From contig LVAT01000017.1 in NCBI GenBank assembly GCA_001604135.1, forward strand, positions 1 through 64,000: DNA of 64,000 nucleotides, read 5' to 3'. The DNA is from Clostridiales bacterium Firm_14 (GTDB lineage: Bacteria; Bacillota; Clostridia; Saccharofermentanales; Saccharofermentanaceae). The notes below the pieces were generated by a model, which saw only the letters and a list, made by a program, of their open reading frames with translations, made no database searches and had not been told where the DNA came from. Positions 3,674-5,958 of the stretch are shown in pieces. Within the stretch, counting starts at the first letter, position 1, and each line of letters opens with the position of its first letter. Made by a program: the position numbers and the translations under genes.

Positions 3674-4219
3674 GTGGCTAATCTCGAAGAAGCTCTTAAT
3701 ACCGAGCGTGTTGTTTACAGCGAAGAAACCATCCAGAACAGGATAAAGGAATTAGGCAGACAAATCACCGAAGACTACAAGGATAAGGAACTCATCGTCA
3801 TCGGCGTAATCAAGGGTTCTCTTTATTTCCTGTCCGACCTTACCAGAGCTATCGATCTTCCAATCAAGATCGATATGGTCGGCTTCTCGAGCATTCCTGA
3901 CACGACCTCGAAAACAGGAATCGTCCGCATCACCAAGGATATCGACATCGATATCACTGACAAGCACGTTCTTGTAGTTGAAGATGTAATTAGGACAGGT
4001 CTTACAACTGCTTATATCATCCAAAATCTCGAAATGAAAAAGCCTAAGGACATCACGCTTTGTTCGATGCTCCTTAACCCTGACAGGCTCTTAATGACGA
4101 TACCGGTCAAATACTACGGCTTTGAGATCAACGACCAGTGGCTTGCAGGTTACGGCCTTGACCGAAACGAGATAGGCAGAAATCTTCCTTATATCGCTCA
4201 GATACCTAAGCAGAAATAA
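3674..4219 (+). CDS. hpt: Hypoxanthine phosphoribosyltransferase (GTG start)
   Basis: VVEDVIRTGLT PRPP-binding motif; full-length PRTase homology. Confidence 0.9.
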   Translation: MANLEEALNTERVVYSEETIQNRIKELGRQITEDYKDKELIVIGVIKGSLYFLSDLTRAIDLPIKIDMVGFSSIPDTTSKTGIVRITKDIDIDITDKHVLVVEDVIRTGLTTAYIIQNLEMKKPKDITLCSMLLNPDRLLMTIPVKYYGFEINDQWLAGYGLDRNEIGRNLPYIAQIPKQK

Positions 4220-4229
4220 AAACTTAAGC

Positions 4230-4965
4230 AAAAGAAAAATCCCGATGACCTAGATCATCGGGATTTCCTTTCGCTCCAACGAACCAAATTAGATTACTTA
4301 CAAAGATCACGCATTCACGCTCATCTTCTTACCGCTCTTCCGTCCTACCAAAAGGCCCTTTCCTAACCACTACCCGAGCTTTATGTGATATCGTTACAAC
4401 TAATCGATTGCTGCAACCCTCAATCACACCGTGCATCTCATGTCTCCATTCACCGAACACTACGCTATTCGATTGTGGTCTGCTCCCTCCACCTTGCGGT
4501 ATCGCTTGCAGTTCGACAGCCTATCCGGCTACTCGGTTTGCACGAACCGGTGTAACATCCGCTGCGGCTCCGGTTCTTTCCTGTCGATGGTGACATCTCA
4601 CCTACTCGCGGTCCCGAATACCGAATCAACTAATTGTTACAACCTGTGGCTTGCATGACTACGTCACCTTCAACCACTCGCTCGTCACTCCCTCAGTTCT
4701 CGTCTCGGACTTTGTATCAACCTTCGATTGTTGTCTCCGGCTTCGTTTCTTCGGCTTCGCCATAAGTTCTTTCCAACTCTGGTTCTTCCCTGCGCCTGCT
4801 CGACAATTGCTTCGGGCGGCCTCCCTCGGATCTGGAAGTTATCGCTTCCGTATTCCTTGGAGCTAGCCTAATAATACTTGCTGGCTATGGAGTTCGCAAT
4901 ATTGCAGAAGATACCAAATGAAAATCATTTGGTTGTGCAATCTGCACAATACTTGGTATATCAAA
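4230..4965 (-). ncRNA. Candidate large structured noncoding RNA (~730 nt), class unknown
   Basis: No plausible CDS on either strand, minus strand purine-rich, many local hairpins (e.g. CGGTT-tgcacg-AACCG, GGTGA-catc-TCACC, GGAAG-ttatcg-CTTCC, TTGTGCA-atc-TGCACAA as read on +), ends in a minus-strand intrinsic terminator. Confidence 0.6.
4238..4265 (-). terminator. Intrinsic terminator (U-tract on minus strand; may also serve hpt)
   Basis: aatcccgatga-cctaga-tcatcgggatt; minus-strand continuation TTTCTTTTGCTT. Confidence 0.8.
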
Positions 4966-5028: not shown

Positions 5029-5526
5029 TCAGAAAAGATCTGAAACTGAATTTATGCCTGCTTTGGCAAGCAAACTGATGACCAGCATGATAATTCCGGC
5101 CATAAGAACTCCAAGAACAACAGCCTTAGTCGTCTTCTTCGCATCGAAGTCGAGCATGGAAGCTGCAAGCGTTCCTGTCCAGGCGCCTGTGCCGGGGAGC
5201 GGGATTCCTACGAAAAGCATAAGCGCAATAAAAGCACCGTTCTTCTTTGACTTGGCTGTAAGCTTTTGTCCGGCCTTCTCGCCTTTCTGGAGGAACCACT
5301 TAAAGATTCCGCTTCCGTGCTTGAGCTTGGAACCCCAGATGAGGACTTTTCTGGCGAACAGATATATAAAAGGAACAGGGATCATGTTGCCGACGACGCA
5401 GACTGCAAGAGTTATATATTCATTCAATCCGAAATATGTGACTCCAATCGGAACAGCTCCACGGAGCTCGATTATCGGAACCATAGAAATAAAAAAGACC
5501 AGAATGTACTTAACTATTGTCGGCAT
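5029..5526 (-). CDS. Small multidrug export protein family (COG2426) membrane protein
   Basis: MVPIIELRGAVPIGVTYFG...GIPLPGTGAWTGTLAASML motifs. Confidence 0.85.
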   Translation of the reverse strand: MPTIVKYILVFFISMVPIIELRGAVPIGVTYFGLNEYITLAVCVVGNMIPVPFIYLFARKVLIWGSKLKHGSGIFKWFLQKGEKAGQKLTAKSKKNGAFIALMLFVGIPLPGTGAWTGTLAASMLDFDAKKTTKAVVLGVLMAGIIMLVISLLAKAGINSVSDLF

Positions 5527-5586
5527 ATACGTCCCTCCACACCGCAATAATTTAACACATAACGGTCAAAAAAACCAAATAATTGA

Positions 5587-5958
5587 TCAGATGACTTTAT
5601 TCTTATTAAGATAAGACCTTATCTCATCTCTCATGTGATACATTTTCTGCACACTGTTCTCGAGAAAATAGTAGTGCATTACATATCCGATCGTAAGGCC
5701 GAAGAATATCAGTACCAGGAGTATTCCAGCGATAAGGAATTCAGAAGGAAGCACGAACAGGCAGAAGATCTCGAAGAGAAGCCAGGACGCGAAAGCCAGC
5801 GTTACCATGAGGTGGATAAGTCTCTCGTGCTGGAAATAAGAGATCTTTGTCTCAAACTCGGAGAGCATCTCCTTTGTCTTTTCATAAGGAGCATTCTTCA
5901 TCTCTTCATCAATATATTTCTGTACGGCATTCATCGTCACTAAAACATATTTCTTCAT
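5587..5958 (-). CDS. Hypothetical membrane protein
   Basis: ORF between neighbours on same strand, two predicted TM helices. Confidence 0.6.
   Translation of the reverse strand: MKKYVLVTMNAVQKYIDEEMKNAPYEKTKEMLSEFETKISYFQHERLIHLMVTLAFASWLLFEIFCLFVLPSEFLIAGILLVLIFFGLTIGYVMHYYFLENSVQKMYHMRDEIRSYLNKNKVI

Follow-up and report, generated by a model that had tools for sequence, protein, structure and literature searches.

Few large structured RNAs are known from bacteria, with OLE, ROOL, GOLLD and raiA among them. The ones that have been studied have brought surprises such as RNA-only cages and membrane ribonucleoproteins (RNPs) (PMC12286853, PMC9723947). OLE, ROOL and GOLLD form particles with proteins or with themselves (PMC12286853). 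The solved example of ROOL measures 659 nt. ROOL comes from phages and prophages, where it sits close to tRNA islands, and GOLLD RNAs, many of them longer than 800 nt, are phage-linked too (PMC12286853). The genes ole and oapA are nearly always found in tandem (PMC9723947), and in C. difficile raiA (ModT) is a trans-acting RNA (PMC11706538). One intergenic region of the window (the whole 64,000-nucleotide stretch of DNA that was analysed) had been flagged in a first-pass annotation as a candidate of this kind, a large structured noncoding RNA on the minus strand. Homologs, covarying helices and strand-specific pairing now support that proposal. We hold with high confidence that positions 4864-4236 of the minus strand carry an independent gene, present in a single copy, whose product is a large and highly structured noncoding RNA of a class not in Rfam, and with very high confidence that its identity is that of a new standalone class of structured noncoding RNA.

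The locus, its coding capacity and its strand

The RNA gene lies between hpt and a gene for a COG2426-type membrane protein, and its setting comprises the following features.

4864-4236 (approximate), minus strand: structured noncoding RNA gene, inferred transcript of ~630 nt, with homologs, noncoding, without a match in Rfam
4863-4273, minus strand: RNA body, 591 nt
4871-4899, minus strand: sigma70-type promoter, with -35 TTGCGA at 4899-4894, a 17-bp spacer and -10 TATTAT at 4876-4871
4235-4268, minus strand: intrinsic terminator, 15-pair stem with UUUUUCUUUU tail, just past the end of the convergent hpt
3674-4219, plus strand: hpt (PF00156), convergent neighbour of the RNA gene
5029-5547, minus strand: COG2426-type membrane-protein gene (PF06695)

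The genome from which the window derives (45 contigs, 3.12 Mb) holds a single copy of the RNA, which scores 305.9 bits with the covariance model R1. Elsewhere in the window, an AAA_25 protein (861-2353) and a Tn916-Xis-like protein (2483-2555) are encoded beside a tRNA gene, an arrangement that resembles what is left of an integrative element.

Neither strand of the RNA region codes for protein. Nine open reading frames (ORFs) of 41-75 aa overlap it, and the initial impression that they are small and implausible holds up, as none is conserved: frameshifts occur in 9-19 and in-frame stops in 3-10 of the 19 close homologs, and codon changes are mostly nonsynonymous (for example, 57 synonymous and 235 nonsynonymous). 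In the same codon test, synonymous changes make up approximately 75-80% in the control genes (1359 synonymous to 312 nonsynonymous in hpt, 1029 to 366 in the COG2426-type gene). At the DNA level, the ORF stretches are 86-93% conserved, compared with 81% for the flanking protein genes.

The minus strand had been described as purine-rich and dense with short hairpins. With 62.8% purine, it has the strongest strand bias among 634 windows of the same size across the 64 kb. The folding stability of the single sequence does exceed that of shuffled sequences, but to a near-equal extent on both strands (z -3.60 and -3.55), and therefore leaves the strand undecided. Comparative data resolve this: a wobble test found 294 G-U cells against 21 C-A cells, with 94.5% of cells paired on the minus and 79.4% on the plus strand, and this excess of G-U over C-A identifies the minus strand as the RNA strand.

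Predicted structure and covariation

The predicted structure is built from a terminal helix (P1), two further long-range helices (P2 and P3) and hairpins within a conserved core.

4850-4863, minus strand: P1, terminal helix, 5' arm, GCUCCAAGGAAUAC
4273-4285, minus strand: P1, 3' arm, GGUUCGUUGGAGC; GGUUCGCUGGAGC in most relatives
4815-4820, minus strand: P2, predicted second long-range helix, 5' strand, GCCGCC
4354-4361, minus strand: P2, 3' strand, AAAGGGCC; P2 is given as GCCGCC with AAAGGGC
4680-4684, minus strand: P3, core-closing helix, 5' strand, CGAGC
4375-4379, minus strand: P3, 3' strand, GCUCG
4646-4677, minus strand: hairpin H4 (GUGGUU...AAGCCAC), inner stem GGUGAC/GUCAU
4580-4611, minus strand: hairpin H5 (CCGCG...GGUGAGAUGUCACC...CGACAGG), near-invariant segment UGAGAUGUC
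4375-4684, minus strand: conserved core, used to build R1

P1, formed by GCUCCAaGGAAUaC with GGUUCGnUGGAGC, closes the whole RNA. Both arms are present in 77/77 full-length genus homologs, a count biased towards finding P1 since the extraction tolerated one mismatch per arm. In the order-wide set, the core pairs of P1 are standard in 86/86 sequences and include one significantly covarying pair (G-C/A-U, E 0.0011). H4, which corresponds to helices 2 and 3 in the pairing analysis of alignment A4 and to the order-wide motif GCGAUUGACGG...ACAAGUCGC, has five pairs that covary significantly (E 0.014 to 1.6e-6), and H5 (helix 8 of the same analysis) has two (E 0.021 and 3.3e-5). P2 is paired over three pairs in 78-82 of 85 sequences with little covariation; P3 shows GC, AU and GU alternatives and is paired in 79-81 of 83-84 sequences, and in 100% of cells in A4. 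Because the central long-range helices are nearly invariant, covariation can lend them little support, and they remain predictions.

A search for homologs followed by a covariation test had been suggested as a check on the candidate, and both gave positive results. Eight of 130 structure pairs covary at E<=0.05, in P1, H4 and H5, and none outside the structure; order-wide, 5/106 pairs are significant, again none outside. The null model, which preserves the phylogeny and the number of substitutions on each branch, is our own re-implementation of the R-scape idea, not R-scape itself. In A4, 94.5% of cells are paired, compared with 86.8% when columns are shuffled, and double (compensatory) changes number 167, compared with 49.3; with slid partners as controls, pairing falls to only 28-45%. 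On the sequence evidence, the RNA can be credited with internal covarying helices, near-invariant blocks, a terminal helix, its own promoter and terminator, and no coding capacity.

Transcript ends, distribution and synteny

The -10 element of the promoter ends six bases ahead of AGCTCC at 4864, which we infer, without expression data, to be the approximate transcription start. The promoter matches the consensus at 9/12 positions, and a single promoter of this quality in the window is at chance level (0.9 expected), so that it is credible because of its conservation rather than from the window sequence alone. It occurs at the equivalent place in 77/77 genus homologs, and across the order the fixed-position promoters of 104 loci score on average 9.32/12, compared with 6.53 in shuffles; a score of at least 9 is reached by 76/104 loci and by 3.2% of shuffles. 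In other genera, the promoter reads TTGACA-N17-TATAAT or TATACT. The strong minus-strand intrinsic terminator noted earlier is confirmed at 4268-4235 with its 15 pairs, and 95/103 homologs have a terminator-like hairpin no more than 70 nt from where the RNA ends. From the conserved promoter and terminator together, we infer a transcript of ~4864-4236; no transcript has been measured, and support for minus-strand transcription is only indirect. In two loci of family f4 (L184 and L185, in genomes G064 and G067), the RNA 5' end and promoter are doubled in tandem, ~500 and 695 nt apart.

Two of the hairpins first ascribed to the RNA, TTGTGCA/TGCACAA (4933-4949) and AAATGA/TCATTT (4913-4933), fall upstream of this conserved promoter and are therefore probably not part of the RNA. 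They belong to two adjacent palindromes at 4913-4949, TTGTGCA-N3-TGCACAA and ACCAAATGA-AAA-TCATTTGGT, which may serve as operators or mark where the COG2426 transcript ends. The TGCACAA half is widely conserved in the genus.

The extent of the family depended on the search model. By blastn, the RNA was found in 53/99 relatives, all of the same genus; R1 detected it in 81/87 genus genomes and, under strict filters, matched no other genus in the order or class sample. A genus-specific RNA was nevertheless a reading that we dropped, since the strict filters had missed the rest of the family. R3, a model that includes divergent genus members and was run with laxer filters, matched 21/22 genomes of the family's other genera, mostly at E 1e-9 to 1e-3, and the matched sequences carry GCGAUUGACGG...ACAAGUCGC, the same two ends at the expected distances, and the promoter. 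The 5'-end motif AGYTCCARGGAATRC extended the search further, matching 118/190 order genomes, with few matches to the reversed control. True loci outside the genus have the exact 3' arm GGTTCGCTGGAGC downstream and a consensus promoter directly upstream, the 3' arm lying 245-440 nt from the 5' end in most families and up to 590 nt from it in genus g28. Each of the order's four families shows both ends and the consensus promoter, as does G201, a genome from another order of the class and the sole real match outside the order; the phylum sample yielded no further true members. Ten further genomes from outside the order, drawn from the class and phylum samples (G192, G448, G496, G345, G300, G553, G388, G545, G219 and G771), have motif matches that lack the 3' arm; these were taken as chance, as were second-copy matches in G001, G025 and G148.

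Most loci outside the genus, including that of G201, share with the window the arrangement of a convergent hpt and a cytidylate-kinase-like gene, which supports common descent. The RNA is vertically inherited through one bacterial order and is also present in one genome of another. Within the genus, neighbouring genes change while the promoter, ends and core of the RNA persist, and the gene for the small membrane protein (PF06695) that adjoins the RNA in the window is absent beside it in many homologs. A gene for a 123-aa protein without a Pfam match (5587-5958 of the window, minus strand) is retained on the upstream side of the RNA across much of the genus, including genomes in which COG2426 is missing there. 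Six genus genomes (G006, G023, G034, G054, G144 and G155), three of them 97-99% complete, gave no clear match, so that the RNA is probably not strictly essential; some lineages can do without it, have lost it or carry a form that escaped recognition. A comparison of the gene content of these six genomes with that of the others could indicate protein partners.

Proposed role, rival explanations and comparison with known RNAs

The locus most likely encodes a structural RNA that acts in trans and is of the same type as OLE, ROOL and raiA, yet forms a new class and is not a member of those families; its function is inferred only. We propose a model in which the RNA would be transcribed from a strong housekeeping-type promoter, fold into one closed multi-helix particle, and act in trans as the scaffold of an RNP or of an RNA-only oligomer, in the manner of OLE, ROOL and raiA/ModT. 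Its partners in the particle might be proteins encoded elsewhere or the RNA itself. A particle-forming structural RNA would be consistent with the closed terminal helix, with the near-invariant segments and with the fact that no protein-coding neighbour is obligatory, and the variation of neighbours around a constant promoter, ends and core argues for a standalone RNA acting in trans. The scaffold mechanism is tentative, and our analysis gives it somewhat less than an even chance; alternatively, the RNA could adjust growth phase, as raiA/ModT does (PMC11706538). A further reading, possible yet rather unlikely, is that the class has its own biochemical activity (as a ribozyme, RNA cage or RNP core) and replaces the role of raiA or OLE in this order, with a fixed closed core in sizes from ~250 nt in some families to ~600 nt in the genus.

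Against known classes, searches with Rfam 15 (4,227 families) returned only sub-threshold chance matches, none of them close to a cut-off, whether with the window or with 38 related loci, among them RNAs down to 245 nt. OLE gave no match at E up to 0.5-5, and the covariance models for ROOL, GOLLD and 6S found none in the RNA; nor did the raiA model (RF03072) in the RNA of the window and related loci. Other candidates were also set aside: RNase P RNA is present elsewhere in the genome as a type A copy (G000:C13:140195-140540, E 1.9e-84), and ARAGORN detected neither tmRNA nor tRNA among 105 homologs. A very divergent member of raiA/ModT, OLE, ROOL, GOLLD or 6S that escaped the models is thus improbable, even if the size and character of the RNA recall OLE and ROOL. 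Since no raiA exceeded the cut-off in the 26 genomes of the order searched, it is conceivable that raiA has been replaced or has diverged enormously; the only real raiA that we found in the class (L198 in G190, from another order), however, lacks the AGCUCCAGGGAAUAC...GGUUCGCUGGAGC ends of the RNA. The first-pass annotation had been unable to place the RNA in ROOL, GOLLD or OLE and had suggested a new class. With HEARO, raiA and all other Rfam families now included without an assignment, a new class is the supported reading. The class is not described in Rfam, and our literature search on RNA motifs and Saccharofermentans, a merely suspected host genus, found no description; an earlier one outside Rfam is possible, for example among the supplement-only candidates of a large screen (PMC8040213).

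An element acting in cis, whether it regulates the convergent hpt (as an antisense RNA or at the 3' end) or serves as the leader of a neighbouring gene, is less probable still. In most genomes the RNA is oriented towards the 3' end of hpt, an arrangement that recurs in other families and in another order, and the RNA's terminator lies just past the hpt stop codon. However, the RNA stops short of the hpt coding region, and in several genus lineages hpt is absent beside it, the downstream genes there being unrelated and on the same strand, with the RNA equally conserved; having its own terminator, it is not a leader.

There is only a slight chance that the RNA belongs to a mobile element or phage, like ROOL and GOLLD, which are usually phage-borne (PMC12286853), or like a transposon guide RNA. 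At a distance of 2 kb there is a possible remnant of an integrative element, but the RNA is single-copy at an old chromosomal site, mobile-element genes were not recognised adjacent to it, and neither the 50,697 phage nor the 72,556 plasmid records searched (viral contigs not included) gave a match. A decayed protein gene, to which small ORFs on both strands might point but of which no sign was found, and chance hairpins can be practically dismissed, given that the ORFs are broken in close relatives and that covariation and sequence conservation exceed the controls.

The class has more than 100 members in one order, in natural short and long versions of 245 to 620 nt. Together with the sharp ends and the consensus promoter, this size series opens the class to structure determination as well as to probing and deletion tests, and it allows one to ask which parts constitute the functional core.

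Returning to the trans-acting structural RNA that we favour, its resemblances to known systems are partial in each case. Like GOLLD, it is large and ornate, with conserved and variable regions, but it has no match to Rfam. It shares with ROOL a similar size, a standalone and complex character and the lack of a known protein partner, whereas it occupies a fixed chromosomal site by hpt, without a phage or plasmid homolog found, and does not meet the ROOL/GOLLD trait of a phage or prophage location near tRNA islands. OLE is likewise an ornate, single-copy chromosomal RNA of Bacillota of ~600 nt with near-invariant blocks, and in the window our RNA also adjoins a membrane-protein gene (COG2426); in contrast to OLE, this gene is not obligatory beside it, and the RNA has its own ends and its location at hpt. 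Although it differs from raiA (ModT) in length (245-620 nt compared with 209 model positions), in its ends and in having no match to the raiA model, both are standalone structured RNAs of Bacillota, and raiA is a plausible functional analogue.
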